From: Thuidium tamariscinum
Taxonomy: Eukaryota > Streptophyta > Bryopsida > Hypnales > Thuidiaceae
Reading direction: 5' to 3'
Assembly: GCA_947034885.2 (NCBI GenBank)
Contig: OX344754.2
Coordinates: forward strand, 26,409,369 to 26,473,368
DNA: 64,000 nt
Of this stretch, positions 17,544 to 60,820 are shown in pieces. The notes beneath the pieces were generated by a model, which had not been told where the DNA came from, ran no database searches, and was given only the letters and a program-made list of their open reading frames with translations. The translations under genes and the position numbers were made by a program. Each line of letters opens with the position of its first letter. Positions within the stretch are counted from its first letter, which is position 1.

Positions 17544-17697
17544 AGGGTTGTTCTGCTAGACATTGCGACGTCACGAAACGTCCAGTAGACCCTCCGCGAC
17601 GTCCATAAAAGTCAAATTTACCTTTGACTTTTTAAAAATTACCACGTGGAAAATAATGCCACCTGGATGCCCGCGTGGCAAAATTTAGGGCGCATGC
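17544..17697 (+). repeat. conserved outer module with paired W-boxes, copy 1
   Basis: It begins AGGGTTGTTCT, like the termini of the 9.8-kb element (AGGGTTTTCT). It contains GCGACGTCA and GCGACGTCC, then AGTCAAA...CCTTTGACT (two inverted TTGAC W-box cores), then TGCCACCTGGATGCC and GGGCGCATGCGGGT. The same order recurs at 32690-32860 and, inverted and more diverged, at 42290-42470. W-boxes bind WRKY factors and TGACG bind TGA bZIP factors; activity here is inferred. Confidence 0.7.
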
Positions 17698-17960
17698 GGG
17701 TATAGCGATCAGAGCGACTGCAGCTAGGGCGACCGCGGGTCAGGGCGACTGCGGATAGCGGTTTACCGTGGGGGCGACCGCGCTAGGGGCGATTGCAGGA
17801 TTAGGCGACCGCGGCTCACCCAAAGTCGCCCCATCCACAGCCGCTGTCGCCCTACACGGACCCGCGGTCGCCCCCTCCAATACGCGGTCGCCCTAACCCG
17901 CAATCGCATGTAGCTGTAGTCGCCCTAGCGCCACCCATGGTCGCCTCTGATTCGCACGCG
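17697..17960 (+). promoter_or_regulatory. GCGACCGCGG array upstream of the 18.15-kb gene
   Basis: The first half carries the motif as GGGCGACCGCGGGT (to about 17815) and the second half as its reverse complement, ACCCGCGGTCGCCC (17820-17960). The array is therefore a large imperfect palindrome. Variants differ mostly at CpG (CGACTGCGG, CGATTGCAG). It ends 27 bp before a TATA box. It is placed like a promoter-proximal enhancer. Confidence 0.75.
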
Positions 17961-17986
17961 CCCTGGATTTTACCCGTACTCGCCCC

Positions 17987-17993
17987 TATAAAG
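17987..17993 (+). promoter_or_regulatory. TATA box, 18.15-kb gene
   Basis: TATAAAG set in CGCCCC...GCCGTG, 157 bp upstream of the ATG and directly after the GC-rich array. Confidence 0.65.
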
Positions 17994-18149
17994 CCGTGCT
18001 CGCACAAGTCATTGATACATTCATTCTCCATCGAGGCTCTTTGTCTTGCATCCTTCATTGGCTGCATGCATTAACTTCGGGTTGAATAATTACATCTTTC
18101 TTCATTCATCCACGTTTCCTTATTGGTGTTTTGAACACCAACTTATCTC

Positions 18150-20624
18150 ATGGCTACAGAGCAGACCCCGGAGGTGCCCCCCGTTGTTCCACGCAATGCA
18201 CGAATCACTTATGCTGCGAGGAAGTCTATACTAGACAAAAATCGGAAGCGCAGGGGCAATACTCATCGCAAGCGATTACACGTGTTGAACAATCCTGATC
18301 ACCCTGCATTTAAAGGCTGGAGCGAGGAGGAGGAACCTTGGTCAATTCAAATCTGCGAAGACTACATTGAATGGTGTCACATTGGGAAATTGTTTCCGGC
18401 ATGGCGCCATCATCACAATCGGCATACAAACAAGGCGAACTTGAAATATTGTGAAAATCCAGCTTTTGTTAAAAGGTGCATCGAAATTTGGCAAGTCCTC
18501 TACAACACTCCTTTTGTAGAAAGGAATGAAGTCACGCTTTCCATTGCTCGAGGAGCGTATGCTGAGGTGGTTTTAAAAAAAGAAGTGGATTGGTCTACCA
18601 TCAAGGAAAGTATGTATGTTTCACCTCCAGAGATTGGATCAATACCAAGAGGAGTCTTGAAGTTTCCGGAGGGTGGACTTGGACCAATTCGAAAAGATCT
18701 TTTCGATAAGAGTGTCATCGAAGTTATCACATCGGAATCTGAAGAAGATAGTGATTCCGATGGCACACATGCTCCAAAGCCAAGACGGGTTGCTCCACAA
18801 ATTGCCCCTGTACCAGTAATTCAAGATCCAGTTGTCAGAGGAGCTTCATCATCACGAGGACGGAAACCTAGACGCCTCTCGAAGGTTCCACGCTCGCCGA
18901 ATCAAATCGGACTTGGATCGACCTCAGCAACAGTTCGCAGTCCATCATTACCACTGCAAAATGCGACCAATGTCTTCGACTTCGAACCGAATGATGAAAC
19001 GCTTGTGGATGCGAGCGTTCCTGTTCTTTTAGCTCAAGGGGATTCAACCACGGCTCTCAATAAGGCTCTTGACCTCTTGAAGACCAAAGACACGACAATT
19101 GCTTCACTCCAATCTGATGTGAAGAAATTGCAATCAAATTTGGATCAGAAGAATGCTCTCATCTCAGAACAAGCCAAAGAACTTCAACGCCTTCGACAAA
19201 AACAACATGAAACGATTACTTTGTCAGATATGGACGAAGGTTTCATTGAACATGATCCCCATCATTTGGAGAGGGTCGTGGAAGACCTCACTAGCAGTCT
19301 CATTCAGTATACTTCTCCTGGCAAGCGTGTCAAACGTTCTTCAGTATTGCCAACTACGATTTTCCCTACCGTCACGGAAGATGCTATCGTGGGGGCAGAT
19401 GGTGTTCACGAGACTCAAGATTCACTTTCATTTCCTTCACTTCCACTCCCTGTACCGGTACCATCTCCGAAGAAACTAGGCCTTCGAGAGGAAAACAAGA
19501 TGCTTCGTGCACGATTGAATGAGTTCGCAGCAACATACTATCACTGGAAGGTTGCGTGCATTCTCTTCGTGGACAGATCACAGCAAGTTGCGAAGGAGTT
19601 GGACAAAATTTCAAAGAACTTCGTCGCAAATGCCCCTAAACGTGAGAATGGACTCACATCGTGGGCATTTATGGAGGACATGTTTCCTGAGAATATGCCT
19701 ATGTTGAACACCCCTAGAAATGAAGGAATCAATTGGACACAACTTGGTTGGGACCACAAAAACCAGATGTCGTGCCATGTAGATGAGAAACAACGACAAC
19801 TTCTGTGGTCGAAGCCAGCAACTTTTGTTTTGGACCATACAAAATGTCCTATATGTCAAGAATCCTTCGGCCCTGAAGGAGGATGGGCACTTGGATCATG
19901 CGTGCACGTATACCATCCTCAATATCTAATTACACAATGCCTCATACGGAGACGTTGTGTTATTTGTTCAGCCCCATTCCATGATCGTTTATACGCCTTG
20001 TTCAACTTGATGACATATATGCCGCCCTCTTGGGAACACACAGGTGACACAACTCCGGAGACCAGATTATGGGGCCGAGACTTGATTTGGAGTTGGCGAC
20101 AAGGCCAACATGATCAAGAAAAGGGCACAGATAGTTCTCAATTGAATTGGAAAACTGACCCAGAAAAGATCGTGCAAGTTGCATCCAAGCTCATGGAAAA
20201 CGGTCCACAGAACGAGGGACGGAGGGCATTTTTTTTCCAATGCCTTGGTGGATTTTTCAATAAACAATCACAAAGCTTCATGTAGGGACGTCATCCGGAA
20301 TGTCACCGTTGGGATTTTGAAGGAAAAAGAGTGTGCGACCAGACTGCAAATGCCTCTGAAGAAGATCTTACTAGTATGGCATTGCTGGACTCTACATATG
20401 GGCCCTACTACACAAGTCAAACAATTGACTATTTGTTGGAGAAACACTCTCCACAGACCATGAGGACCCTCCAAGCCTTGAAGGATTCCAACGTCTTAGA
20501 ATCCATTCTAAATGCAAATGGACCAGCTTCACGCACTCGCGCCAAGCATAAACTTGTGGTTGGAGAATCATCCAACCACGAGCGTGGTGAATCAAGCAAT
20601 GCACATGAAGACCCAAATGTTTAG
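18150..20624 (+). pseudogene. WCH-family protein with coiled coil and RING-like domain
   Basis: The intronless frame of 825 codons starts at ATG 18150 and is interrupted once, by TAG at 20283-20285; the same frame then continues 113 codons. Residues 1-50 are basic. Residues ~55-155 hold the shared WCH block (W..E..PW, YIEWCHIGKLFP, WRHH, KANLKYC, CIEIW, YAEVVLKKEVDWST). The middle is Ser/Pro-rich and acidic, with a coiled coil at ~300-350. A RING-like domain lies at 566-606 (CPIC...CVHVYH...CVIC). The sixth zinc ligand, expected two residues after YH, is Tyr 592 (TGT to TAT), so zinc binding is doubtful. Close relatives are at 22500 (minus) and 53400. A RING would suggest ubiquitin ligase activity; otherwise the function is unknown. 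Confidence 0.7.
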
Positions 20625-22499
20625 GGTTTAAGATGCTAACTATGGTTCTATAGCTAGCCTCGTAATCATCTAGGTCACTTGTGACTTTTCGTCATACTAT
20701 ATATATAAAAGAAGGCTCTTAGAGTCTTCTTATACGATAATACGATGGAACTTCATCACTATTTGCATTGTGAAGTATTAGCCTATTTGTTATTGTTATA
20801 GTTTTATTTGATGGATTCTAGTAGGTTTTCTTCATTAATTGTTATTTCATAACAATTTTGTGTTACCTTTTTTTTAATATATACTTTTTTTTCGGCTTTA
20901 CCTTACTGTGTAGAAATTCTATTGTTTGCACTTGTCTAAATAGTGAATGGCTTCATTTCTATAAATACAAATTGAATCTTTGTATTAAGGAAATTGATTT
21001 GTTTTTTATTCTTGTTTTATAACAAAATACTCTTTCATGTTGGATCATTGAAAGGAGTAGCCTACGTCGATTTTATTTTTGAATGAAAGAAAGGTACTTC
21101 GTTCATTAAATCCTATACAAGAAGACCGCATTTTTTTATTCTAATAATTTATATGATAAATATTGAAAAATGAACAATGAGAGAAGTTGAAGGTTCAAAT
21201 TTTTTTTAACATACATACTTTTATGGAATAGTATAGACTAAATATGTCTTTTGAATTTTGTTTTTCCATAATTCATTGTTCATTGACATATTAGAGAAAA
21301 ATTAATTTTCCTAATTTTATGTTATTTGAAAACCATAGGCAAATGTATCTGTAAACCAAGGATTGTACAAATATAGATTCATTTTTCAAAAAATCACGTA
21401 TTATTTGAATTCTCTAAAAAGTTTAGAATCCATGTTATAATTAGAAACCATATAATTTGAAACCAAATCAACACACTTCGGACATCCATTAGGTATAATA
21501 AATGAATTTTTGAAGGAAATTTCTAAACCAATAAAAGGTTTGAATTGAAGTTCAATTAAATGTCCAAAAATTGATTTGACATTTGGATCTTTATTTCAAA
21601 ATTTATGGATAAAAAGGAGAAATAATGTTGAAGTTTTTGGTAATTTTTGGGCCTTTGAAGCCTTCTATGATTTTTGCACATTACTTTTGATTAGAATCTT
21701 GAAATCTCAATTCTCATATGGATTTTTGGAAAAAATAAGTGAACTTTGTCACACAAATTTTTTTAGAAAGTTATCTTTTTATCAATGTTAATTTACTATG
21801 CCAAAAAGATTATCAAAGTTTGCTAAAAAATATCATAATTTTTTTATTATTACCACAATTGGAAATTTCGAATGTACTAATTTATTTTTCTTAAAACTCC
21901 ACTTTCGTTCCACCATAAAAACATGAAGTATTTCTTCTATCAAATGAATGTAATTAGTATTTTGTATTCTCTATTTATAGGGATTGCATCTCGGAAAACT
22001 TTATTTCGAACTTTCGATGGCCATATCTTTCAATTTGTGCAGTCAAACTTCCTAAACATTTCACCACATGATCTTAGACAAGTAAAGTACAAGATCCTAC
22101 GGTTGGATATTATGAAAAAAAAATTCTTCTTTTGGATGAATGCAACACAAATGGCACCACAAAGTAATTTTTGGAAAAATTTGACATTCCTCCTTTAGAA
22201 GTTAATCATTATGTGTTCTTTTCTATAAATTAACATTTGTCATTACAATGTCCTAAACAACAAAAAATAGTTGATTTTATATTGATTTGGGTAGGGTTTT
22301 CAATTGGTGGAACAATTATTCAAGTGGTTATGTCCTAAACTATCATAATACTATTTCACATCTTCAATAAAATATCCTCACGACTTGCACATTTTTCCCG
22401 AAAATTGCTTTTTACATTAATTACAAAAAAATTACATCCTAGAATAAGATCCACTTGTCCAAAACGCAAAATCAAAGTACAACCCTATAATACTTCACT
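20625..22499. other. AT-rich spacer between two convergent WCH genes
   Basis: Very AT-rich sequence with short runs and no supported gene. Small plus-strand frames at 21576-21791 and 21923-22198 have no recognisable features. A TATATATATAAA run at 20700 is probably low complexity. Confidence 0.5.
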
Positions 22500-23996
22500 T
22501 CAACGTGTGGTATTACAAAAATCTTCTTCTTTGGGTTCTGGACCTATCTCTTCAAGGTCTTTACGAGTAACACCTCTAGCTGTAGTACGCACTTTCCACT
22601 TCATCCAAGCGCGCTCAAATTGAATTTGTGAATCCAGTTGTCCCACCTCTTTCAGTGATTCCACAAATTTCTTCTCATGTAGCTTAACAAGCTTCCGCAA
22701 TACTGATACTTCTTCTTCTGTGGTACCGTATTCAGGAGCCATAGCGAGAAAATCTAGCTCTGAGGCACATTGTAGAGCAACAACGTAGTTGGTCTTTTCT
22801 TCCTCATCTATTTGCCAATTGAGGACTCTTACGTCATTGTACACCCGCCAACGTTCGCGTTCAAGAATTCTCAATTTCTGTTGAAGTATGGCATACACGT
22901 CCATTGGGTGTCCACGCTTCTCTTGTTTCTTCTTGTAATAATGATCTCTACTTTTTTTCATAGAAGCTAGGCGCTCGTCATTTTTAGAGATGGCCCTGTC
23001 TATGGCCTTTTTCTCTTCCTTCAATATAGGCATGGCGTGTGCAGTTGTGCCAGCACTAAGTTCCAGTGCTCTTATTTGGCGCAATTCTGACACATCTTTT
23101 TTCACCAAATCCAAGGCCACAATTGCTGAATCTAATTGAGCCTCTATAACGTGCACACTCTCTTCTTCATCACCTTGTCTCCCATCTTGGTGGCCTTCAA
23201 CAATTTTTTGGCCTACTCCCATATGCTCGTGACCTTCCCTGACTTGTTTTTGGATGTTTGATGGAGTCTCTCGGTCCTCCACCTTTCTTTTGCCTTTCTT
23301 GGCAAGTTCCAACTCCAAGGCCTTTTTCTGGTCGCCCATGCCAACATCCTCATCATCGCTCTGGAAATTATACCCATCGTATTCATGGGTGTGTTCATCT
23401 GAGCTAGAATTAGGCGACCATACTACCTCTTCATCCAAAACAGCTAACTTCCCAGGCTTCACTCGTGCTAATGACTTCTTCAAATCAATTGTTTCACCTT
23501 CTGCTACAATAGATGCTTCTTCCAGATGGTCTCCAACTAGAAGCCCCTTCAATGTTGACCAATCCACTTTTTTCTTCAATATGTTTTCAGCATATACCAT
23601 TTGGACCAGGAAGAAACAGAAATTGTCATTTCTATACGGCTTGGGCTCCCCATACAACTTCATCCATACTTCCAAGCATCTGAGTATGAAGTCTTCATCT
23701 TTGCAATATGCAAGATTGGCCTTGTTTTGCCCCAGATGAATCTTGTGGCGCCAATGTGGAAACAACTTGTTGATGTGGCACCAATCAACATATTTGTTGA
23801 CTGTTTTGTAAGTCCAAGGCTCAGGTTCAGTCCTCCAACCCAAAAAAGCCTTGATTTTTGGATGTTGAAGGAGAGGCACTCGCTTCTTGTGACCTTTCCC
23901 CTTCCTTTTACGATCCTTGTCTCGAGCTGCCCTCTTCTGTGGTGAAGTCAATGGTTTGCCTGTACTAGGCTGGGCTGCTCCAGTCTCATCCTCCAT
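22500..23996 (-). CDS. WCH-family coiled-coil protein, intact
   Basis: A single uninterrupted frame of 498 residues starts at ATG 23996. Residues 1-40 are basic (KRAARDKDRKRKGKGHKKR). Residues ~50-150 are the WCH block (EPWTYKTVNKYVDWCHINKL, WRHKIHL, KANLAYC, RCLEVW, YAENILKKKVDWST). An acidic linker follows, then long charged coiled coils (~270-480). It has no RING. It is the only long frame here in the repeat-associated gene set without an in-frame stop, which suggests a recent copy or selection. It shares with the genes at 28.8 and 53.4 kb a ~100-bp upstream core containing CTTAAG and a GC-rich array. I do not recognise the family; the basic N-terminus and coiled coil suggest a nucleic-acid or oligomeric scaffold role. 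Confidence 0.75.
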   Translation of the reverse strand: MEDETGAAQPSTGKPLTSPQKRAARDKDRKRKGKGHKKRVPLLQHPKIKAFLGWRTEPEPWTYKTVNKYVDWCHINKLFPHWRHKIHLGQNKANLAYCKDEDFILRCLEVWMKLYGEPKPYRNDNFCFFLVQMVYAENILKKKVDWSTLKGLLVGDHLEEASIVAEGETIDLKKSLARVKPGKLAVLDEEVVWSPNSSSDEHTHEYDGYNFQSDDEDVGMGDQKKALELELAKKGKRKVEDRETPSNIQKQVREGHEHMGVGQKIVEGHQDGRQGDEEESVHVIEAQLDSAIVALDLVKKDVSELRQIRALELSAGTTAHAMPILKEEKKAIDRAISKNDERLASMKKSRDHYYKKKQEKRGHPMDVYAILQQKLRILERERWRVYNDVRVLNWQIDEEEKTNYVVALQCASELDFLAMAPEYGTTEEEVSVLRKLVKLHEKKFVESLKEVGQLDSQIQFERAWMKWKVRTTARGVTRKDLEEIGPEPKEEDFCNTTR

Positions 23997-24199
23997 AACT
24001 ATTGCTACTTGAGTACTATACTACTCTATGGTTAACTTAACTAATTGTTCTACGACTAAAATATTCTTTTCTAAAAACCTAAATCCCTAGAACAAGCAAA
24101 CTTCACATTTACAAACCTATATGCATTTACAAAATGTTTTTTTTATTAAAAAAAAGGACACATTCACATACATAACAGTATGCCAAGCATGTGCAGAGC

Positions 24200-24345
24200 T
24201 CGAGCACGAAAATGGCAATCAAATCCCGGCGTGAAGTATGGAATCCCTTGCTCACGGGCACACAATCAGCCACATCTAAGTGGGTGAAGGTCAATGCGCA
24301 AAGCAAGGGAGGTGGACTACGGGTCGGGGCGACTGCTTAAGTACC
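24200..24345 (-). promoter_or_regulatory. shared upstream core with CTTAAG, 24.0-kb gene
   Basis: Read on the minus strand it holds GACTTCGGGTACTTAAGC (CTTAAG at 24336-24341), then ACCCGTAGTCC, TTGCGCATTG, TTCACCC and GTGGCTGA. The same elements in the same order lie upstream of the genes at 28829 (minus) and 53400 (plus). CTTAAG takes the position that TATAAA holds in two other array genes. It lies about 340 bp from the ATG. Confidence 0.6.
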
Positions 24346-24465
24346 CGAAGTCACCTAGGGCGCGTGCACAAGGGCGACTGCGCATTCAAGGCGACCGCGG
24401 GTCCAGGAAGGTGCGCGTTCGCGGGGTGCGACCGCAGCTGGGCGACCGCGCCTTCGGGTTTAGGG
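24290..24465 (-). promoter_or_regulatory. GCGACCGCGG array upstream of the 24.0-kb gene
   Basis: GGGCGACTGC, GGCGACCGCGGGT, GTGCGACCGCAGC and GGGCGACCGCGCC occur on the plus strand. Relative to the minus-strand gene they read ACCCGCGGTCGCC, the same sense as beside the other genes. Its distal edge carries GGGTTTAGGGCTTTAGGGTT (24459-24478), two plant telo-box-like TTTAGGG units. Confidence 0.7.
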
Positions 24466-24484
24466 CTTTAGGGTTTTGGAAAAT

Positions 24485-27170
24485 AGTAGTACTTTTGTTG
24501 TTTTAACACCTTCATTATCAAATATTATAGTCTTTCACTCTAGAAGTGATATATCTTTTTCCTATGCAACCTTTGATGATTATGTTTAATTTGAACTTGT
24601 CATTTTTAATCAAAGTGAAATAAAAAAAACTTATGAAAATGTTTACATTCCGTTTTAATGAAAGCAAATTCGAAGAAGCTCAAAATAGGCCCTGGGCATT
24701 TACTGGTTAATGATTAGTTCAGTGACTTCTTTGAAGTTAGCATCCCCTGAAGTCGTGAAGTCTCTAATTTGTAAGAATTTTGTATGGTTGAAATCGAAAA
24801 ATCCTTTGTGTTGTAACTTTCTATAATCTTTGAAGATAGAACTTCAATAGTTCACCAAAAAAAAGATATCTCTTTTCAATAATTTATTTCTGAGGAACCT
24901 TTCATGTATCTAGAAATGGTTTCGCAAGTAGTTAAAAAATAGTAGTCTTCTTCTATATTTAGGAAAAAATAAATTTGATACTCTATTAAAAGATTTTAAA
25001 ACTATTCAAATTATATATGATAAGGGAAATAAATTGTAAATAGGCAAAGGTAGAAAATTATTGTACATGCCAAAATGGCAAGAAAGTGTTGATGGAATAA
25101 CATAATTGACCATCCCTATGGTTTAAATGATTTCTAAACAACATAGTTGAGTACTATCTATCATTTTCTTCCTTCTTTGAAAATATTGCAAATAAAACAA
25201 AATAAAGGAATTCAATCTATAATTGTATATAAGTTAAAGAAGTTAAATATGCCATGAATAAATAAATTCACATCCATTCTTCCAAAATGTAATAAACAAA
25301 TTTTTGTAAAGCATGATGACAAACTCCATTTTCTCATCCAAATATCCAATATGTCAATAAGCCAATCTAAAATCATTAAAGAAAATAAAAAAATATAGTG
25401 CCTTTCAATATTTTCTTGGTTTCTCCCATTACAAATTTATAACTTCATTTTGACATTCAAACTTAACCAATTAGGTATTCATAAAAGGTAACAAAACCGA
25501 ATATTTGGAATTAAATTTCGATTCCATTCGAAATTTTTAAATTGAAATCTTGTACTTTATTCAAGATCTATAGCAAAACTATCAAACATGGAATGGCACA
25601 AGAAACTTCTCCACACGTAAAGTCATTACCTCCTAAATGCCCAAGGTGGCAAGGCCTATTTTGAGCTTCTTGGAATTTGTTCTAAATTGAAAAAATTGTC
25701 TAAATTTTGACAAGTTCAACAACTTTCTTTTAATTAAAATTGTTCAAATTTTAATTCAAGTATTCAACATGTTAGATCTTTCAAAGAATTTTATGTTGTA
25801 GACGATTTATCGTAAGTTCAAGAAAGATTGACCAGTTTTAGTACACTTTGGCCATAGTACTCTTGATTTTCCGGGAGTACTTTCAAAATACAAAAACAAT
25901 TTTAAAAAAATATAAAAAATATAGTGAATGTATATTTCTTCAAGAAGAAGATATCCGATGAAGGAAAAGTGTAGAAAAGGTTTCTAAGTAGGTGAAGTGG
26001 TGAACTAGAAAAGTATAAATGGCTCATGGAAATAGGCACTTTTATTTTCCAATTTGTAAAAAATAGGGAAATTGGCCAAATTGGATCTTAACATTTTTAT
26101 AAAAACTATATATGTGTAAATTTCCAATTTTTATAAATCTTTTATTCTATAATTAGAAACATCTTCCCAAAAAATTGGAATCATTCTAATTATTTGGTAT
26201 TTTTCTATCATACATTCACACTATAATTCTAGAACTCTAGGTTGAATTTAATATTTTTCAGATTTCTTATAAATAAAATTTGAAAATAAAATTAAAATTT
26301 TCTTTGTATATTAAGAATGAAGACTTAAATTAGTTTTGCCCTATGAGGAATTTGTCATTGAAAATTTCGAGTGGGTACATTATGTCTCCCTTTGCCCTTC
26401 AAGGATTAAGTATTGAATATTAGTTTCTTTTAAGCTTTCTTCATAAATTCATGATGATCGGAAATTTTTACAAGAAAATTCAAATTCTGAATACATGCAC
26501 TAGACACTAGTCAATCATGTAAGTCAATCAATTAATGTCAGTCAATCAATTAAGGATGTAAATTACTAGAGGAAAAAAATCCCTTATACTATAGAGTACT
26601 ATGGACAATAAAAACCTATAACATTTTGGGAATTGTAATTTTACTCAGTATTGTCTATTATTGGAAAAAAAATTGCACACTAAAGGGCCAACAAACATTG
26701 TCAATGTCATTGACTTCAAGCAATCAAGTGACTATTTAATAATATGACAAAATAATGAAAATCCTTTAACACAATTTAACAAGTAATTTGAACACATTCA
26801 CTTTCAACGACACTAGAATGAGAGCTTGCAACAAAGAGCTTGTGAGCTAAGAGCCATGAGGCATGAGCATGAAATTTGTGAGCATAAAGCCTGAGTAATA
26901 TATTCTTTCCCCATACTCCCCAAAAAGGTGATCTTATGATACAAACATGTCATATGACATTTCAACTCACAGTGAAGACAAATTTGACTCCAAGATAAAT
27001 TGTATTTTAACTTTTAAAATACAATGCATGGAAGGCAATGGTTTGTACACTTTGTTTTGCCAAAAAAAAAAATTATATATTCGTGTATAGTAATACAAAA
27101 TGATAGGCTCACATTGTTGCCAACAATTTCTTCTAATGGCTCAACAATTTGCCTTCAACTAATGCATTCA
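24485..27170. other. AT-rich spacer
   Basis: No gene supported. It holds a partial copy of the ~730-bp element (see 25868-26085); the rest is AT-rich sequence with no clear structure. Confidence 0.5.
25868..26085. repeat. ~730-bp inverted-repeat element, partial copy F
   Basis: CCGGGAGTACTTTC, then an A-rich block, AAGAAGA, AGGAAAAGTGTAG, TTCTAAGTAGG and CAATTTGTAAAAAATAGG follow the same order as the left half of copy B (2079-2275). The terminal repeats are missing. Confidence 0.55.
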
Positions 27171-27173
27171 TCA

Positions 27174-28829
27174 CTATAGGGGGGAATCGCGCAATACAAA
27201 TGTTGGAGGCTTCATATACCATGGAGGCCCCATGACCAAATTCACCACCTCGGTACATGTTGGTCTCTCCTTCAGATCTTCATTTTTGAGTTGGCCCACC
27301 TTCATAGCAAAATACCTACATGCATCCATCGTTGTGAATGTCTCTTTGTCAAAAGGATACATATCCCCAATCTTCATAGCTTCCACCAGCTTTCCAATAG
27401 AATACGAGTCTGACTACTTTGTATATTTATGCCTCGATTGCATAATTGGTATGCTTGTATCCGAATTAGGAGGTCCAAATGTATAAAACAACTCTAGAGC
27501 CACCCACCATCGTCCCTCTTGTTGCTTCCGTGTCTCTTCCTTGGTAGGATATCCATAATGCGATGGGGCTTTTTCGTTTACACGGCTTGTAATTCCGAAA
27601 TCACAAATCCCAATGTTGATTATTTCATTTGAATAATCAAGATAGTGCAACAATACATTTCTCAGAGATAAGTCATTGTGTAGCACTGATGATTGGTGCA
27701 TGAGGTGAGTCATCTACACCAAGGTCCATGCCAACTTTGCCTTATGCCTTCGAAAAAGGCTAACTTCCTTTTGTTTCTCTTCAGGAAGTTGTCTGATTCG
27801 ATGCACCTCGTGCCATTCAGTAGTTCGTGACACCAGCTTATCCACATTTAGTAAGTCACCCAAATGACCTCCATTCCACCACAATGTATACGCTTCCATG
27901 GTAATTGAGTTTAAGGCAAAAAACTTAATTAAGCCTGCATGATTTAAGGGGCATGCCAAGGCCTCTACGGACCGTTCCACCCACTGATCACGCAAGTCCT
28001 TCGTTTTTGGCATTTTCCCCGCAAGAGCAATATTTGGTGGAATGGTATCTAGACCTGTAATTCGAACCTTGCGCACCTTTCCGTGGCCACCTTCACGAGA
28101 AAAACCACCGAGGGCCTCAACCTTTGCCGTGGGTGGAATCCATATGATACTCACTCCATCATCTCTTGCAAATGCAGCCTTCACAGCGTCATTTTTCCAC
28201 TTGAAACCCCTCGATCCAAACTTTGACAATCTCTTGGCCGCAGTATGCCACCACTCCATCTTCGCACGGAATTCCTTTGCCTCTTCATCTTCCACTCGTC
28301 CTGTGATTGGTGCACGGAACTCTATCATCAATTTCTTGGTATTAAAAGTTACTGCCTGAATAGTATCAGTCATCCAAGCACAAAATCTGGAATTGTACGT
28401 TAAGTCCATGTCTTTGAAGTCCTCTGATTCATAACACTTGCTTAAGATTCAGGCCTCCAAATCCCCCGTCAGCTTCTCAGTGCCTGTTCCAGGATCCCTC
28501 AAATAGTTTGCCTCCAAAAATTGTACACTTTTTCCAACGTACCATTGAAGGCACACCTCATATGCATACCTTGTATAACTTGAAGGAGGATATGTTGGAT
28601 CCTTATCATGAGCAGACTTCGACTTCTTTTTCTTCAATCGAGCTTCATTCCCTGTTGTTTCGCTTGTAAATATAGGCTCTTGAAAGTGTTGTGGATCATC
28701 CAAATCCCAAAGGGATTTTCGCCTCAAGGTACTGGTACCCTCTGTGGGATTAGGCATTTCTGAGAATATTGAATCAGTATCCAAAACGCCTTTGTGCCTC
28801 ACGTCGCCATCTTCTATTGGGTTGGACAT
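27174..28829 (-). pseudogene. protein-kinase-like gene with array promoter, three in-frame stops
   Basis: One frame of 552 codons runs from ATG 28829 to 27174, broken by TGA 28449-28451, TAG 27714-27716 and TAG 27414-27416. The N-terminal ~240 residues are of unknown type, with a basic KKKKSKS stretch. Kinase features follow: a Gly-rich loop (SREGGHGKVRKV, ~244-253), a possible VAIK Lys (ALAGKM), the catalytic loop VLHNDLSLRNVLL (~383-395, HND instead of HRD), DFG (~410) and RWWVALELF (~440-449) in the activation-end position where APE is usual. After the third stop come SDSYSIGKL and an end resembling kinase subdomains IX-XI. HND keeps the catalytic Asp; Ala-Leu-Glu for APE is unusual. It was probably a Ser/Thr or Tyr kinase captured by, or encoded in, a mobile element, and is now decayed. 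Confidence 0.75.
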
Positions 28830-28909
28830 TGCGTGTAATCGAAAGCTTCACCGTAGCTTTGAGGAATTTTATAGATGAAAATGACAAAAAAATCCCCCCA
28901 AAATCAAAT

Positions 28910-31134: not shown

Positions 31135-31350
<216 letters not shown>

Positions 31351-50608: not shown

Positions 50609-52001
50609 CAGAAGGTGTTAGACCGTAGAGTTGCACCATAGTACATTGAACTTGCTCGATGTTGACAAACAGTGAATTCATTTCGTTCAGACAAACTTTA
50701 ATAGGTTCCTTGCTTGTAGCTTTTGCACTCGCAGGTACAATCAAAGTTTCATTGAGAGAATAATATTCTCCTACATACTCAGTTAACTTCAAATTTAGCA
50801 TCTCTCGTGCAAGTGACACTTGATGCGGATTTGGAAGACATCCAATGCGGAGACCACGACCTACAGCATGTGTAGCACCTTTAAATCGCTTGTATATAGC
50901 TTCATATCCATTATGTGTGATCCCATTTCGATCACATGTTTCAAGGATATCACAGGGTAATACATGTTTGCCAATCTTATTCAAATATTTATTTGTCATA
51001 TTGACACCTACTGCTTCAAGCCTCGGGTCTTCACAAATTGCAGAAACTTCAGTTTGAGACAATATAGATGCAAGAATTTTTCCGGTTTGAGTTTGTATTG
51101 TTCTAGAACCATGCAAATGTTGTCGTGAACCAGACTCAATATTTGTAGTTTGAATATCTCTTATAGTAGCAGGCAGTAAGATGCTACGAGCTAATCGTAA
51201 GGTTCTCTTGGTGTGTCCTCCTTTTGGGGCCAATGTTGACAAATCTTTCCTGCCTCTCATGATGCTTCTATACCCAAACGGAGTCTTCACTAGGTTTTGA
51301 AGTCGAGCATCTCAATGTCTCAAAGTTGCTTTGGTACGTTTCAATTCTGAAGTATAGGTAGATAAAGCTTTTGCATGAGACTCTTTGATAGTTTCAATCT
51401 CCACCCACAAATCTAATTCCAGTTGCATGCGGTCATCACTTTCATCTTTCATTTGAGCATTCAATGAGCTTATACAACTCTCATAAGATACAATCAATTG
51501 TCCATTTTTGACTTGAAGCACATTGACCTCACACTTTAGTTGCTGAATAGCTTCCACATTCTCATGATTTTCTCTCTGTATTTGTGTGAGAGATTGCAAT
51601 TCAAATAGAGTAGATTGCAACAATCTTTCCTTGTCATTTACAGTATGCATAAGAACTATTTTTTCATCTCTGAGTAATTGTGCTTCTCTCTGAGCTTCTT
51701 GCAAACGAAATTCAAGTGCAGGATCATAGTTCCTAAGGCTGTTGACGTAGCCAAATAAGCCACTGCTACCATCACCAACGAACTCGAGCAAATCATTGAC
51801 TGAACGAAACTGTGGACGTTTATTTGTAACAGGATGGTGAGGATAAATGGAGCCATCGCACTATAGATCAATGTTTGATGCACCACGCTCACGATAAAGA
51901 GCAAAATCTACTTTTGGAGTTTGTTCATGAAGCATTTGTCTACGATTAATTAATGGTGCATATTTCTGGTCTATGGTGGTCGACAATTTGTATTTTTCCA
52001 T

Positions 52002-52870
52002 TTCTAAACAATACCAAATTTCTAGCAAACAAGAGTGATGGCAAAGCACACTGAAATTGTGGGAAAAGTTTGCTGAAATTGTGCTTGCGAAGTGATAGAG
52101 TAGACGACCCAATAATTTACAGTGAGAATCAAGTAGTTGGATGAGTAGCTCGCGCCAAAAATAAAGCGGGAGAATGGTGACGTACTCCATGCCTGCATGG
52201 AAGCGGGAAGGGAAGCTGAAGTGGCAAGCGGGAATGCATGCGCCATCATTACTTGATGGGCATCATTTTGAATTCCCTACTCCCGCCGATGGATGCTGGT
52301 AATCCAGACGGTTGAGATCTTTTTCAATCAGCCCGCCCATCTTGTACAGCTATGAGTTAGTTCAATTTCCATCAAAGGAGGAGGGCCTCTTTTAAGCCCG
52401 GCTTTCATTCTAATGGCTTCCTATGCACAAAAATTACACACCAAATATTGGTGGAAATGTATACCATTGCATTTTAATTTATATAGGCATTCAATTACAT
52501 TATTGAGCATTGAGCTTTGACATACTTCAGGTCATTACTGCACTATTGTAGTTGAATTCATGATTTTTTTTATTGATAGTGAGATTTTTCTTTTCATTCC
52601 TACAATGCATTTTTCTTTCAAGCCTTTCATTGATTGTGTTATTTTTATATTTATTTTCTCATGGAATTTTCTCCAAATGAGCATTCTTTAGTTAATATGA
52701 TTTCCCTTTTTATTTTTATAAACTTTTATTTTTTGAAAAAATGGGCATTTCCCTTTTTTTTTACACACCATTTCTTCCCATGAATCCTTTTTTTAGTTCA
52801 CATCGGCTTCCTTTTCATTTCTACAACTATTTTTCAGAGGGCGAAATCCAAAATTCAGATTTCCTTGGTG
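52002..52870. other. 5' flank of the transposase-like gene and spacer
   Basis: Minus-strand frames near 52.0-52.25 kb may be 5' untranslated sequence. The remainder is AT-rich with no recognised feature. Confidence 0.35.
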
Positions 52871-52874
52871 AACA

Positions 52875-53235
52875 ACCTGTGGTCGCCCAAGTCAGAGGGC
52901 GGGAAATTCAGAAATAAAAGCCCTTGTAAAAGGACCCGCGGTCGCCCTTCCCGCACTCGCGCTACTCGCGGTCGCCCAGCCCGGTCATCCATTTCCAAAA
53001 AGGTCCTTCAAAGGACCCACGGTCGCCCTTCCCGTGGTCGCCCTTCCCGCAGTCGCCCTACCCGTGGTTGCCCAGGCGCGGTCGTCATTTCAAAAGAGTC
53101 CTTTGAAGGACCTGCAGTCGCCCTCGCGCGGTCGCCCTTCCCGCACTCACCCCACCCGCAGTCGCCCTCGTACGGAACGCACGCGCCCAAGGGCGACATC
53201 GGGTTCTTAAGCAATCGCCCCACCCGCATTCGCCC
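52875..53235 (+). promoter_or_regulatory. GCGACCGCGG array upstream of the 53.4-kb gene
   Basis: About 15 units of ACCCGCGGTCGCCC type (CCCGCAGTCGCCC, CCCGTGGTCGCCC, CGCGCGGTCGCCC), in the same sense as the gene. Two ~75-bp sub-blocks containing TTTC(C/A)AAA(A/G)...GTCCTT(C/T) AAAGGACC-like sequence are also repeated. Confidence 0.75.
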
Positions 53236-53288
53236 ACTTGCAATTCCAGCGCTGCACACTGCTCTGTCACCCGCTTCTCGTGGCTGAC
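53188..53288 (+). promoter_or_regulatory. shared upstream core with CTTAAG, 53.4-kb gene
   Basis: GGGCGACATCGGGTTCTTAAGC (CTTAAG at 53206-53211) is followed by ACCCGCATTCGCC, CTTGCA, TGTCACCCGC and GTGGCTGACTGC, the same order as upstream of the kinase-like gene. CTTAAG lies 189 bp before the ATG. Confidence 0.65.
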
Positions 53289-53399
53289 TGCGTGTCTAGT
53301 ACTTGGTTTTTTTTACTGTGATTGTGTGGTTCGTGCATCTATTGGGGAAGCTATTGTTGCATTTTGGTATTTCTTAATACCTCCATCTACTTCAATCCA

Positions 53400-54797
53400 A
53401 TGGATGCCACCCAGAGGAACCGTAAAGCCAAAGGCAAGATGCAAAGAAGACAATGACACGTCCTTGTGGACTCTAATGTCGTGGCTCATGGAGGTTGGGA
53501 GAGGATCGAAGGCTTTTGGACCGCGACCACTTGTAGGGTATTCGTACAATGGTGCCACATCGATAAGCTTTTCCCCTATCATCGACACAAAATCCACTTG
53601 AAGTCAAACATGGCAAATCTTCATGCTTGTACTCACGATGGATTTGTACAAAGATGTATCGAAGTATATCGATACTTGTACAAGACACAAAGTGTGCCTC
53701 GGAATGAAATTCCCTTGTTTCTGTGTGAGATGGTGTATGCGGAAGTTATTCTTCGACGAAGGGTGGATTGGAGCACCATCAAGGGAGCAAAGCTTGTCCA
53801 AAAACCATCAACCAAGGACATTCCTAGGGCGGGTCCCTCCCCTAACCCACGTGAAGGTCTAGGGAAAAAGATTTTCATCAAAAATGAAGTTCCGAACAAT
53901 GAGTTTGTGTGGTCGGATCACGAAAGTAGTGAAGATGAGTTGATGGATGTTGGACTGCCACATGTGGGTGAGACATTGGCCAATTTGGAGCCTTTGGAGG
54001 AGGGGGAAGTGGAGGCGGGCCCCTCGTTGACATTGCCTTCATTGGAAGGGATGCCAAGAATTGAAGGATCTGTTGAAGCTGCAAGTGTGGAGGCCAACGA
54101 AGATATTCAAATCAAAGACTTTTGTATCGTCCAATTGAAGATGGTGCTTGAAGAGTTGGATAAAGCAAATGAAGAGAAAAGGACTTTGGAGGAAGGGGCA
54201 GTGGCTGATACTTCTGATGATTTTCCAACCCTTGAAGCCCTCATTGAATCGGGATGAATTCATTTGTCCCAGCAACATGAGCAAATGATGAACTTGGAAG
54301 CATTCTATCTGAACTTCTCCGTTTCAGAGGGTGAAGGTTCTAGTTCTTCAACTAACAAATTTGTAGAAGAACGATTGGCTAAACTCAAGGAAGATTGTCG
54401 CATCGAAGCTGAGTGCTTGGAAAATGAAAAAAGATCTCTTGAAGGTGCACAATCAAAATTACGTGACCTTCAGAAAATGAAGGACAAAGCCCTTCTTGAT
54501 CGTATTGTTGATATACAAGATTCTGAAGATCATGAGAGGCAACATGAGACATTGAAGTTGGAAGCAGAGGACCTGAAGAAGAAGTTAACTAATGCTCTCG
54601 CATTGGAAAGTGATGTGGCAGGGGAAGTGGAGAAGAAGAAGATGACTTTGCTCAATGCACAGAATTTGAAGAAAGAGTACATGAAAAATAAATGGTGGGA
54701 TTTTCCTACTCAATCCAATTTGGAGAGTGCCTACAAGGAGGTGAAGAAAGACATGGAAGCTAAGAAAAGGCTAAAGAGAGATGAACAAAGCAAGTAG
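53400..54797 (+). pseudogene. WCH-family coiled-coil protein, two in-frame stops
   Basis: The frame of 466 codons starts at ATG 53400, with TGA at 53454-53456 and 54255-54257. The first stop lies in the basic N-terminal region where relatives have Arg, so CGA to TGA is the simple explanation. The WCH block follows (VFVQWCHIDKLFP, HRHKIHL, KSNMANL, RCIEVYRYLY, YAEVILRRRVDWST). Then comes an acidic linker and, after the second stop, a long coiled coil (about codons 305-460). The layout matches the intact 22500-23996 gene, which is its nearest relative here. No RING. Confidence 0.75.
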
Positions 54798-55539
54798 AAT
54801 GTTGTATGATGTTTTGGGGGGCTAGCAGTGCTAGCAATTTTTGGAGGACTTATGACTTTTGTAAACATGTATATATAAAAAGGCTACTATTATTTTTTAG
54901 TATTATTTTGCAAACTTGGGGTGTTTCATTTCTATCATTGATGTGTATGGATGCAAAAGAATTCATATTCCTTCATTTGCATGTTGACGGGTTTTTTTTA
55001 AACATCCAAAATGCTCATTAAATCTTTCAAAAAGCATCTCCATAAAATGCTCAATATGTGATATGTACACATTTCAAATTTTTATGAAGAAAGTGTCTAT
55101 ATCTAAATTTCATAAAATAGATGTTTCTTTCAATTAATACATTTTTGTACATGCAACTTTCATATTCCTTTTTAGTTTTTAGGAATAGGATAATTTTTCA
55201 TATGCTTCATCAATTTTCTTTAAATTATAAGTATACAAATTTAAACTGTGCATATTAGAGGTTATCAAGGTAAAGAAAATAGAATATTATCACTTATGGA
55301 TGAGAGATTATAATGTTTGATCACAAGTGTGTTAAATTTGCAAAACACATGCACAATTTTACAATCCTCTTTTCATATGTTCAATTTAAATAATTTGGTC
55401 ACCGAAAAAATGAGATACAAACATTGGAGATGCATAACCCCAATAAGTTTTGGGCTTTGAAATAAGTGCTCTACAAATTTTCAAAATGAATTTCGAATGT
55501 GATTTTTTAATTTGATTTTGTTACTTAAATGCTAGCATG
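54798..55539. other. AT-rich spacer, nothing recognised
   Basis: No gene supported. Confidence 0.45.
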
Positions 55540-56530
55540 AGAAGATAGAAATGCAAGTATGTGAGCCTTGATTATTGATATAACTCATATAAGTAGGTAT
55601 CCCACAACTATTGAATATTTCAATGTGTTTATAACATATGCACCTATAATATAAGTGTGTATAGTATAATCACACTAGAAATCTCTAATTATAAAAAGTT
55701 TCTATGATTTAAACACCTATACTATAGGTGAATAGTCTTGGGGATTCACATTTTTAGACTCATATAGTAGCATCCGTCATGATCGTTAAGAGGGATTTTG
55801 ATTAAGGGTTGTTAGGGATTTCCTAGTTTTCTAATCAACAAATGCACAATAAATTCTGTAAAGTTCTTCATTTAATTCAATATTCAAAATTTATAACAGA
55901 AATTGAAATATTAGATGTAGGATAATAATTACCATTGGAATTGGCATTTTCAATTCTATGTAATTCAACTCTTAACAACTTACTATTTGAAATCATTCTA
56001 TATTCCTATGTACTGATATATATTTTCCAAAAATGTTATACACTTGTAGTTTGCCTAAAAAAATTTTCAAGCATATTATGAATTGCCTTTGAACATTGGT
56101 ATAGAAAAGAAACACCATTTACGACAATTATTTTATACAAATGTGATTGTATGAAGTGCAACTTCCTAGGTTTTCATACATCACAAGGCCCTCAAAAGAA
56201 TTACAATCAATTCAAATGTTAATATCTTGGCAATTTTCATAGTAGAAAATTGGTTAACTTTCCTCCACATCTTCTCAAACTAGTGTAATATAGGATCTTA
56301 CAATTATATGTGCCTAAATTCATATTTTTTCCTAAAATCTATTACTTGAATTAAAATTAGCAATTGTCAAAACTACCATATTCAAATCACCTAAAGGCTT
56401 AAAATTCATTCTTGGAGTGTGTCCATTGAATTGCATTCAAATATTTGCATTAGTTTCACTATAGTATAACTCATTTTTATTGTTCACCCCTTCTGGCTCA
56501 AATGCTTTTGGTCTAAATGTTCATTTCTAA
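55540..56530 (+). repeat. dispersed AT-rich repeat, copy 3
   Basis: It carries ATTTCAATGTGTTTATAACA, GCACCTATAATATAAGTGTG, CTCATATAGTAGCATCCGTC, TAAAGTTCTTCATTTAATTC and TTGAATTGCATTCAAATATT. These match the 29.78-30.80-kb copy in inverted order, and several match the 5.5-7.2-kb copy directly. Confidence 0.65.
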
Positions 56531-57790
56531 TACAATGGTGTATGCCATTTACTAAAAGATATATGTATAACTTCAATTTATAATTTATAATTTTGCAACA
56601 TTGAAGTAGCATTCTGCTCAAGTGTCTATTAACTACAAATTTTTTGTGCAATTGCAATATTGCATTCTTTTAATCCCTACAAGACTAAAACGGTTTTGAC
56701 AATGGAGGATTTCAATCAATTCTATCCTTCGATATTTTGGGGCACATAGGTGTTATAATTTTTTAAAATTTTAACTGTACAAAAGTAAAAATGATTATAT
56801 CTAGCATGTATGGAATTAATTGTAGAACATTTCAATGGTTACATCTTTAGATTATAGCAATTCTTGATGATCAACATCATGGGCCAGAAACGTAGTTTTG
56901 GGAGAAACAAATTTATAAAAAGATGAATATAGATTTTTTAACCCCTTAGAAAAATTTATTTGGAGTCTAAAGAAAATTTAGTATTATCATATTAAATTTT
57001 TTGAAAAATTAGAAAGGCCATCACATTTGTACACATTTTCGAACATGAAGACTAGAGAAGTCAAATCAAAGCAAATTGGATATTTGGATCTTACAAAATT
57101 CTTAAAAATTTATATGTGGATAAATTTTTGAAATTCAACAAGTAATGTTTATCATCATATTTTTTAGAACATCTCTAGAAAATTTCAAATCATGAAAAAA
57201 CATTATTTTTGCTTCTTTTTTCTACCACACTACATTCCCGACTACATTTCCTAAATGAATTTTAACTCCTTTTCACATTCAAAATGAGGAAATCAGAAAA
57301 TGCCAAAAGTATGCAAACTTATTTTTCTACAATATCTTAGTTTACAACATACTGAGATTTGCTTCACCCTTACAAGAAATTGCCATTGAAAACTTTGAAG
57401 ATGACACATTGTGTCTTCTTAGTCCTTTAGGGATTAAGCATTTGAAATATCATGAAATTTAGGGTTGTCCTCCTCCATAATTGAGCTCTCATAGAACTCA
57501 ACATTCCTAAGTAAAAGTATGATATTTTTTATCGAGGTTTGAAGGTTCATGATTTCTTGGAGAAAGATCCAATAGGGCTTGGTGGTGAAGGGGTTGGAAA
57601 TACCTTTAAAAGTTTCTATGTGCATCAAATGATAAATCACTTTGGAGTAAGTATTGCTACATTGTAATTTAGATGCTGCTTTTAATGACAATGAAGTGGG
57701 ATATAATGTGGAACTAGGAGGAATCTCCGAATCTCTCAAATAATACCTGTTACAGCTGAGTTAATAACTGTCCACCTTACTCAGGCCAGC
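56531..57790. other. AT-rich spacer
   Basis: No gene supported. A 101-codon minus-strand frame near 57.4-57.7 kb has no recognisable feature. Confidence 0.4.
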
Positions 57791-57796
57791 TGGTCC

Positions 57797-58085
57797 TGTA
57801 AAGCGACCGCGTGTACAGCAACCGCACTTAAAAAAATTGAAAACCTGCAAAGGTGTGACCGCGGGTTAGGTGCGACCTCGGGTGCTAGAACTGCCGCCCG
57901 CCACCTCCATGCGCGGTCGCCCGTCCGAGGAGGGCGACCGCGCTTGGGGCGACCGCGGGTCATTTTCAGTAGTTCTAATTTCCCGCTCACCCTGTCCCGC
58001 GGTCGCCCTTCCATGCGCGGTCGCCCTGTCCACCCGAAGTCAAGCGCAGTCGCCCTTTACCCGCAGTCGCCCCTGTGGCGACAGC
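57797..58085 (+). promoter_or_regulatory. GCGACCGCGG array upstream of the hAT gene
   Basis: The first third carries the motif as GTGACCGCGGGT and GTGCGACCTCGGGT, then a mixed zone, then the reverse complement (CCCGCGGTCGCCC, ATGCGCGGTCGCCC, CCCGCAGTCGCCC) nearest the gene. This is the same two-way layout as at 17.7-17.96 kb. Confidence 0.75.
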
Positions 58086-58097
58086 AGGTGCACAGAG

Positions 58098-58104
58098 TAT
58101 AAAA
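58098..58104 (+). promoter_or_regulatory. TATA box, hAT gene
   Basis: TATAAAA immediately after the array, 233 bp before the proposed ATG. Confidence 0.6.
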
Positions 58105-58330
58105 CTGCAGCTGATACACTGAGGGATTACCTTGCTTCAATGATTAGACTCTAGCCTTGAACCTTCGAAAGAGGCTTCTTGCGGATGTTTTGGTTCATTG
58201 AAGGGCAAGAACCTTGCTTTGAGGGGGTTTAAAAACCCTCTCATAGTAGGTAGCATTGTCATAACTTTTTCCTTGTTACTGGATTCTTGGATCGATTTTT
58301 TGGGGGTGAAACTCATTGTGGATTCACACC

Positions 58331-60820
58331 ATGGTTGTCCCAGGTGGTGGTCAAGGTCGGCACGATACGCGTAGGGCTACAAAAGATTGGGACCCTTGGC
58401 TTGTACCATGCGTTCCAAATGATCAATCATCCTATTCTCGGAAATGCGTGTTTTGCGGGTGGAGCAAAGTCTTTGTGCGGAAAAGGGCATTTAGTCACTT
58501 TGGATATGGTGGCTCGGCAACAGCAGACCGTTGTCCAAAAATCCCTAGAAGTGCACGTGAAAAGTTTAGGACTTGCGACGGAAGCGTTCCAAAAGCCATG
58601 AGTTTTGAAGAATTGTTTGAAACACCATTTGTGGGCAATGAGGCCATTGGTGCGGCACAATCCCTCATTCAAGAAGTAGAGGGTGGTGAGGTGGGTGGTT
58701 CTTCAAATCCAACGGGTCCAATAGGCCCGACAAACCCTACCCCAGATTCAGTGGATTCTACTCCAAGTACGGTTGACAGAACAGGAAGTCGCCCTGTGGT
58801 TTCTCGTCAAAGAAGTATGGATGAAGCATTACAAATAGGCTTGAGACAAAAGTTGGATGCGACATGGGCTTCATTTTTTTATGAAGCCAATATTGCATTC
58901 AACGTCACGCGACACCCTGCATTTATAAATGCAGTGAAGGAAACTGCAGCAGTTGGAATTTTATATCGTCCACCAGCATTCAACGCGTTGCGAACCAGAA
59001 TGATTGATGTGAAAAAAGAAGTTGTCCAAAAAATGGTCAATGACCGGACAAAGAACTCTATTGCGCAATATGGAGCAACTATTTGTTCAGATGGGTGGTC
59101 AGATACCAATAGGCGACCGTTGATGAACGTGATGCTCGTTTGTCCAGCAGGGTATGTGTTTTTGGGATTGGAGGATAGTACGGGAGCAAAGAAGGACATT
59201 GCCTACACGACAGCTTTAATGTCGAAGTACATAGACAAGGCCGGTCCTTCAAATATTGTACAATTGTGTACAGACAATGCTTCAGTAATGATTGGAACTA
59301 TGTCATGTTTGTTACTGAAATATCCCCACATGTACAAACAAGGGTGTGCGACTCACATCTTGGATTTGCTTTTGGAAGATTGGGGAAAGTCTCAAACGAT
59401 GAAGGATTTGGTAAGCGAGTGTAGGACAATGGTGAAGCATATCAGGAAATACCATTTCACTATGGCTTTGTTTCGGAAACATTCTCCAAACAAAATGCTT
59501 AGGCTGCCTACTTTGACACGGTTTGCCACCAATTTCCTTATGGTAGACCGTCTGCTCGATTGCAAACAAGCTTTGCAAACCGTGGTTGCAGATGACGCTT
59601 ACATGACGTTCGAGTTCAGTTTGCAGAATCGAACTAATGGAGGTACCATTAGGCGCAAAGCAATGGATGTTCGGCTAAACATTCATTCTGAAAGGTTTTG
59701 GTCAAAATGCAAGAATTTCGTGTTTATGATAGAGCCAGTACTCATTGCTCTACAACACTTTGATGGCAAAAAACCAGCAATGCCAAAAGCTTGGATGATA
59801 ATGTTCGAGTTGAAGAAACACGTGTATGCTCTCAGGGATCCTCCATTTCTTTTAGACCCTGTGGTTGCAACGCGTTACGAGAAGAAATTTGAAGCTCGTT
59901 GGAAGTTAATGCGAACGGACCTCCACTATGCAAGAGCACTTTTGAATCCATTTTTGGCAGGAGTAGAAGAAATTCAAAACGATGGGGCGGCCAAAGCAGC
60001 TTTAAATCGAGTCATACGAAAACTAGCTCCATCATTAGGAGTTTCAGTGGTCGTGGCAATGCAAGAGCTTGTCCAATTTGAAGAGAAGACAAGGCCATTT
60101 GATCCCCGAGAAGAGGTTCTCGACATCACAGAGACCAATTTAGAACCCCATCAATGGTAGAATCATGTAGGCGGCGATGCTCTTCCGAAGATTGCAAAGA
60201 GAATTCTAGAGTTGACTTGTTCAGTATCTTCATGTGAACGAAACTGGAGCATGTATTCATTCGTGCACAGTAAAACGCGAAATCGTTTGACCACAAAGAA
60301 GGCTCAAGATTTGGTGTACATTTATGCTAACTGCCACTTGGAACATCAAAAGCGTGGGTACAATGCTGCTCAATTTTATGAAAGGGTCCTCGTGGATGGA
60401 GACACTGATGAAGAGAGGGACGAGCCTATGCCTTCAGGATCGGAGGACGAGGGTTATTTTGATTTTATCGAAGATAATTTAGTCCGAAGAGAAGAAGAAG
60501 ATCTCTTGCGCGATCACAATGAATGGGCAGATATGGTCCCACCTCCACCAAGTCCACCGCGATATCGATATGGAAACACATTTGCAAGTGGCAATGATGC
60601 GGAAGGTGTTGCTGAGGAAGAACTTTTTCGTTCTCCAGAGTGGAACCCTGATGATGCGTGGGTCGGAAATTGGGGCACAATTTCACCACGAACTGCGGCA
60701 AGAACACCTTCTCACAACAACGAACAAGCAGATAATCAAATGCCTGCCTCAGATGTTCAAGAAACATCTCCAGTACCTAACTTCCCTAACCGCATGAGAG
60801 GTGTAATTGTTCTCCTCTAA
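58331..60820 (+). pseudogene. hAT-superfamily transposase, one in-frame stop
   Basis: The intronless frame has 830 codons from ATG 58331 (chosen because it precedes the zinc-finger region), broken by TAG at 60158-60160. Domains in order: a BED-type finger (C39-x2-C42, H56, C68); a DUF659-like region (PPAFNALRTRMID, SDGWSD, CTDNASVMIG, CATHILDLLLED); a helical middle; and the hAT dimerisation region (SSCERNWSMYSFVHSKTRNRL minus its first S). The stop lies in the QWWNHVGG position, where a Trp (TGG to TAG) is expected. A long acidic C-terminal tail is extra for the family. It would act in the nucleus on hAT termini, which I could not identify. Confidence 0.88.

Follow-up and report, generated by a model that had tools for sequence, protein, structure and literature searches.

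A giant transposon of the hAT superfamily, about 29.4 kb long and present in dozens of copies, is formed by five genes and their motif arrays in a stretch of 64,000 nucleotides (hereafter the window) from Thuidium tamariscinum (Bryopsida; Hypnales), located on contig OX344754.2 (C6:26409369-26473368) of a 363-Mb genome. In an earlier note on this DNA they had been described as five dissimilar intronless genes sharing one array-type promoter; they are the gene set of the one element and are named g1 to g5 here. hAT elements are textbook one-gene transposons, and the present one is a variant new by its size, gene number and promoter design. A short motif recurs before every gene and at both tips, and we think it fairly probable that its arrays are the element's recognition code, read by an element-encoded protein that would couple recognition of the ends to expression. 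A five-gene, 29-kb hAT in which kinase, g4 protein and transposase are constrained and the tips share one motif with every promoter would demonstrate that a coordinated gene programme can arise in a cut-and-paste transposon; the element is also a direct test case, outside flowering plants, for the coupling of expression, end recognition and escape from silencing.

A giant hAT element and its copies

In the window, the stretch from 17543 to 60777, minus a nested insert at 32515-52415, is one copy of the element whose right end is missing. The left part (17543-32514, forward strand), recognized by similarity to other copies, starts with CAGGGTTGTTCTGC and contains the left end, g1, g2 and g3. 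The right part of the same element (52416-60777, forward strand) contains g4 and g5 and breaks off inside g5 at 60777; the 8 kb that follow the window contain no right end. For comparison, eight regions (A to H) were picked, non-randomly, from 100 listed places of the motif, on the basis of sites up to about 23 kb apart and a repeated pattern. Six of them are colinear with the window element: A, C and D over its length, B as far as 59990, G up to the end of the aligned piece at 53058, and E starting at about 26594. At the insert site, copies A, C, D, E and G align without interruption, and two of them were read there letter by letter. Identity of the window element to these family-1 copies over kilobases is mostly 93–97%, with some stretches at 85–92%. 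Regions F and H contain a related element (family 2), with a transposase gene about 74% identical in DNA to that of the window.

Element ends were located by reading pieces. Both ends were in hand for copy A (C1:7134478-7163927, 29,450 bp, target duplication CCAGTGCG), copy C (C1:12734489-12763877, 29,389 bp, GTTGTTAC), copy H (C1:10193053-10229785, 36,733 bp inclusive of any nested inserts, ATGAAGGT) and W2, a derivative residing in the nested insert, and at most one for the remaining copies. A perfect 8-bp target duplication was present in all four, and short terminal inverted repeats read CAGGGTTGTTCTG at the left and right ends of A and C, and CAGGGTTTTCT at both ends of W2 and H. Because of the 8-bp duplication, these ends and the domains of the transposase, the element was assigned to hAT. 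It also contains a 1-kb inverted non-coding repeat, 79% identical, at 29790-30764 and 55588-56560 of the window.

Three of the genes are paralogues with a common N-terminal domain of about 150 residues: g1 (18150-20621, forward strand; open over 824 amino acids in copy B), which adds a weak RING-like finger below the Pfam cut-off, g2 (22500-23996, reverse strand; 498 amino acids) and g4 (53400-54794, forward strand; 465 amino acids in copy B), for which long predicted helices suggest a coiled coil. Gene g3 (27177-28829, reverse strand; 551 amino acids open in copy C) encodes a protein kinase, with a Pkinase match of 1.5e-11 in copy C. Gene g5 (58331-60777, forward strand) encodes the hAT transposase, which in copy D has 1122 amino acids and contains DUF659 (3.6e-32) and Dimer_Tnp_hAT (2.1e-07); its profile matches Hermes (2.5e-08) at positions 582-651, the dimerisation region. 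Pfam and these comparisons bear out the original calls of three members of one family, a kinase and a hAT transposase. Window copies of g1 (one TAG), g3 (one TGA and two TAG), g4 (two TGA) and g5 (stop at 60158-60160) hold in-frame stops; whole-length frames that are open in many other copies support the claim that the genes are intronless. The products of g3 and g5 have no similarity to other element proteins at E below 1, so that common ancestry of the coding parts does not explain the shared upstream design, again in agreement with the earlier note. In 18 aligned g5 sequences, D254 is nearly invariant and D315 and E636 are invariant, residues that may constitute the DDE catalytic triad.

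Homologues of g3 numbered 47 among 4,563 candidates. Those of g5 numbered 49, the named cellular ones being from plants (Vicia, Telopea; about 28–32% identical). Proteins labelled as from a Bacilli bacterium metagenome-assembled genome resemble the transposase (68%) and the kinase (33%) and are probably mis-binned plant DNA. A virus or provirus was considered and rejected, as the Pfam search found no viral domains, structural or replication genes among them, in g1 to g5; the structural model of g4, the only one compared with BFVD, had no match there at E ≤ 0.001, and viral contigs searched with g4 yielded no relative.

Recurrence of the gene set was assessed for g1, g3, g4 and g5 by six-frame searches of the genome, whose assembly has 11 contigs longer than 17 Mb and, in 7 of 19 contigs, CCCTAAA repeats at the start. 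Scoring was confined to the top candidates (for the kinase, 79 out of 688), and the counts are lower bounds: at least 92 matches for g4 (at least one locus being counted twice), 41 for g5, 55 for g1 and 79 for g3. Of the 41 scored g5 copies, 39 had g4 on their own strand no more than 12 kb upstream, at 4.8–8.5 kb, compared to at most 2 in 200 random placements. Of the 55 scored g1 copies, 48 had g4 on their own strand no more than 40 kb downstream, usually at about 17 kb, and 30 had a scored g5 within 70 kb. Among scored family-1 g3 copies, 67 of 72 had g4 within 45 kb; all 67 lay on the strand opposite to g4 and upstream of it, in most cases at about 4.5 kb. The proportion over both families was 70 of 79. 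Truncation of copies and nested inserts would be expected to leave some genes without a partner in range. Contig C11 (17.5 Mb, about 5% of the genome) accounts for 17 of the 92 matches to g4, including one locus split into two matches, and many of the 17 are among the more divergent ones; it is perhaps a sex chromosome or one otherwise rich in old repeats.

CAGGG-type ends, the 8-bp target duplication, the DUF659 and dimerisation domains, the match to Hermes in the dimerisation region and repeated subterminal motifs at both ends are shared with known hATs (Ac/Ds, Hermes, Tol2/Tgf2). The element differs from these in its 29.4 kb, its five genes, including a kinase and three paralogous accessory proteins, and the presence of the motif also before every internal gene. 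Transposases of 600–800 amino acids are described for hATs in the excerpt available of PMC4890040, compared to 1122 here. ToxhAT, a fungal hAT of 14 kb, is likewise large and carries extra genes (PMC9594970, in excerpt), but is half the size of the present element; the same excerpt makes no mention of a shared array promoter, and g3 and g4 of the present element are conserved between families 1 and 2. Titles and abstract openings of the open-licence literature revealed no evident multi-gene giant hAT, and a word search of a review on gene capture (PMC13317346) did not return 'hAT'.

Motif arrays at promoters and element ends

With up to two mismatches, the motif GGGCGACCGCGGGT was matched 71 times in the window, compared to a mean of 0.03 and a maximum of 2 in 100 dinucleotide shuffles. 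Clusters, delimited with up to three mismatches, sit directly upstream of all five start codons, at 18150 (+), 23996 (-), 28829 (-), 53400 (+) and 58331 (+), just as first reported. The array at 17688-17985 (11 units, the outer ones reversed) serves as both left end and g1 promoter region; those of g2 (24372-24453, reverse strand), g3 (28986-29173, reverse strand) and g4 (52875-53235, forward strand) have 4, 9 and 12 units, respectively, and that of g5 (57801-58089) has 11 units. Gene-proximal motifs had been said always to read ACCCGCGGTCGCCC on the coding strand. This holds for most units. The g1 array, however, is bidirectional, that of g5 is mixed, and the unit adjoining CTTAAG is reversed in the g3 and g4 arrays.

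Each of the five window genes has a box upstream of its ATG, TATAAA for g1 (17987-17992, forward strand) and g5 (58098-58103, forward strand) and CTTAAG for g2 (24336-24341, reverse strand), g3 (29011-29016, reverse strand) and g4 (53206-53211, forward strand). Distances from the start of the box to the ATG are 163, 345, 187, 194 and 233 bp for g1 to g5, in agreement with the 157–340 bp given previously; g3 has an additional TATAAA 44 bp before its ATG. The boxes are less constant in other copies, where g4 has CATAAG instead of CTTAAG (F and H) or no CTTAAG within 700 bp upstream (B).

Further window arrays, beyond the five linked to genes, were found at 29546-29606, 32870-32932, 35597-36410 and 41719-42284. 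The first, a small one between g3 and g4, recurs in copies A, B, C, D, E and G. Copies A and C have seven arrays each: left end and g1, g2, g3, the small one, g4, g5 and right end. Outer units at both element ends read GGGCGACC inward and thus constitute inverted subterminal repeats. Deleted alignment columns amount to about 2.5% in arrays, compared to 0.1% (some 25 times less) in other non-coding parts. This points to expansion and contraction of the arrays, although the alignment of repeats is uncertain.

Exact motif sites numbered 1,468 genome-wide (744 + 724), and none were found for the reversed control. Their context was surveyed for 100 listed sites, all on contig C1, which we grouped into 17 clusters. 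For 16 of these the fetched sequence, partial near 22.66 and 22.75 Mb, was that of family 1, family 2 or a W2-type element; the remaining cluster, near 22.85 Mb, its sequence unfetched, was tied to the elements solely by a family-2 g4 match. Some of the examined arrays are at element ends and inside relatives without g1 to g5. In the earlier note the array had been proposed to be a mobile or spreading regulatory unit. It is mobile, but it moves with one multi-gene hAT and, in the surveyed clusters, was not seen landing before unrelated host genes. That the array is common to non-homologous genes could be taken to indicate a regulatory unit spreading by itself among host genes; yet each of the 17 listed clusters is linked to hAT elements and dozens of copies carry the genes in colinear order, and we consider this reading highly improbable.

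A second family and the putative reader of the arrays

Proteins of family 2 are 64% (g5), 72% (g3) and 51% (g4) identical to those of family 1, and synonymous divergence between families is near 1.1–1.2. Each 10-kb piece of F and H contained 14–19 motif matches, and 20 Markov resamples of each contained none. Motif profiles of the two families look alike; since units were picked by their likeness to the motif, the case for a common motif rests on the counts against resamples and not on the profiles. Both F and H have arrays upstream of g4 and g5, and F also has one upstream of g3. Genes g3 and g4, divergent in family 1, lie on the same strand in the three family-2 g3 copies, out of seven, that have a g4 neighbour; in copy F the array nevertheless lies just upstream of g3 in the orientation of the gene, as in family 1. 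The pairing of array and gene thus survives an inversion of the kinase gene between families. The kinase of copy F (C1:5408423-5410003) has HNN and DWG where that of family-1 copy C has HND and DFG, and is possibly a pseudokinase.

An alignment of six promoters (g2, g3 and g4 of the window, g3 and g4 of F, and g4 of H), which show 56–70% identity between genes or families, revealed a core composed of C(T/A)TAAG, ACCCG(C/T)A, TGYRCAYTG and GTGGCTGAnTG. This core was not seen at g1 and g5. Because the coding sequence of g3 resembles neither g2 nor g4, the core is a promoter cassette common to non-homologous genes; g2 and g4 being paralogues, g3 is its only independent case. These data bear on whether the arrays are transposase-binding subterminal repeats spread by tandem duplication within the element, their place before genes having no regulatory meaning. 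Arrays at both ends, in a W2-type element without g1 to g5 and at places with no assigned gene, as well as the fast array turnover, are what such repeats would produce. However, an array lies immediately upstream of all five genes, mostly oriented with the gene, the pairing persists through the g3 inversion, and a core promoter outside the array is conserved alongside it, which makes this explanation unlikely.

The ratio of non-synonymous to synonymous divergence (dN/dS) between families, calculated for one pair per gene and rough because the synonymous value is close to saturation, was 0.14 for g3, 0.36 for g4 (0.17 for its N-terminal domain) and 0.24 for g5 (0.15 for its core). Plant elements often capture genes, so g1 to g4 could be pieces of host genes carried as passengers by an ordinary hAT, which would be compatible with other readings of the array. 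Against this stand the low ratio of the kinase, the presence of g4 near 70 of the 79 scored kinase copies and the scarcity of g4 homologues elsewhere (7 among 7,995 scored candidates); we regard it as improbable.

The suggestion, made from the sequence at the outset, that one factor, host or element-encoded, binds the array is plausible. The motif at both ends and at the promoters suggests to us a single element-encoded reader for both. hAT transposases recognise repeated subterminal motifs through an N-terminal finger (PMC4890040, in excerpt), and the most likely route would be binding of the array at the element ends by the N-terminal CxxC finger of the transposase. Proteins of the g1/g2/g4 family, with a basic, Cys- and His-containing N-terminal domain and, in g4, a putative coiled coil, might co-bind at the promoters. 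A single signal would thereby activate the whole gene set and mark the ends for excision, and copying of the promoter cassette onto genes of unrelated origin would make them respond to the same factor.

Many transposons borrow host factors, and a host transcription factor could likewise bind the array and make it a strong host-driven promoter, no element protein being required. This we consider rather unlikely, since the exact motif is tied solely to these elements in the listed clusters and is also found at the ends, where hAT transposases bind repeats (PMC4890040, in excerpt).

The nearest working analogue of an element-encoded reader is VANDAL/VANC of Arabidopsis, in which methylation is removed by an element protein that binds short, tandemly repeated motifs outside the coding regions (PMC5735166, PMC10398659; both in excerpt). 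According to these excerpts, VANDALs are also multi-gene DNA transposons with fast-changing tandem arrays of short motifs in non-coding regions. They are, however, Mutator-like, whereas the only transposase domain detected by Pfam in g1 to g5 is that of hAT; related VANDAL families have differing motifs whereas the two families here share one; and VANC binds its motif in electrophoretic mobility shift assays and chromatin immunoprecipitation, whereas here we infer binding. Keeping CpG-rich arrays free of silencing may, by analogy, belong to the job of the binder. The CpG observed/expected ratio is 1.13 in arrays, 0.66 in coding sequence and 0.46 in other parts, which fits a VANC-like anti-silencing function without proving it. 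Only tentatively would we go further, to a self-regulating transposon regulon in which g1/g2/g4 proteins of a new DNA-binding fold read the CpG-rich motif at every promoter and both ends and, against host methylation, activate the whole element, tuned by the kinase, an independent VANC-like invention inside hAT. Another parallel comes from En/Spm, a CACTA element and thus of another superfamily, in which motif arrays at the ends, the TnpA sites, overlap the promoter; to our knowledge its internal genes do not each own an array.

Several observations weigh against an element-encoded reader acting at all promoters. Genes g1 and g5 have no CTTAAG in the 700 bp upstream, the g5 array is mixed in orientation, and arrays occur with no gene, in W2, at 29546-29606 and in copy F (C1:5403828-5404266, with no long frame behind). 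The likeness of the g2 and g4 promoters may have come with the gene, and near-saturated synonymous divergence limits what dN/dS can say. CpG transitions per CpG site are alike inside (3.1%) and outside (3.2%) arrays, so that CpG decay does not show array hypomethylation; the excess of CpG transitions over other G/C sites is 1.5-fold in arrays and 2.8- to 3.6-fold elsewhere, a difference confounded by repeat-alignment noise. As for the proteins, g5 has no zf-BED match in Pfam, and the N-terminal domain of g1, g2 and g4 matches no Pfam family or solved fold: neither its model (predicted local distance difference test, pLDDT, 74.5) nor that of g4 (mean pLDDT 60.8) had a PDB match at E ≤ 0.001, and a PDB sequence search with the g1/g2/g4 alignment gave weak coiled-coil matches alone (best E 0.015). 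DNA binding by this domain is therefore a guess from its residues.

The nested insert and neighbouring elements

The insert at 32515-52415 is 19.9 kb long and has inverted ends CATTAG(G/A)ATGA(G/A)AG and no target duplication. The absence of a duplication prompted consideration of a Helitron, which was ruled out by the inverted-repeat ends. Frames of the insert at 43817-44773, 47329-48453 and 50574-51860 matched no Pfam family above the cut-off. Within it lies W2 (32672-42471), a family-2-type hAT derivative of 9,800 bp with arrays at both ends and the target duplication GGCAAATC. W2 has no clear match to g1 to g5, a single 29-residue kinase match (E 6e-4) being found. A 162-bp tandem array of the motif in W2 (35641-36424 by the program TRF, within 35548-36462) creates an open frame of 304 amino acids that is probably spurious; this tandem array recurs at C1:16.50, 22.25 and 24.03 Mb. 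Also inside W2, at 33077-33793, there is an imperfect 0.7-kb hairpin, 81% self-complementary, resembling a miniature inverted-repeat transposable element.

The hAT element is flanked by a Harbinger-type DDE transposase at 15718-16635 (DDE_Tnp_4, 2.7e-28) and a Myb/SANT-like gene at 62749-63090 (1.4e-08), probably remains of separate mobile elements. GC-rich frames at 9648-11708 probably belong to yet another mobile element, because a relative, recognized by eye, sits in an insertion interrupting the transposase gene in copy B.

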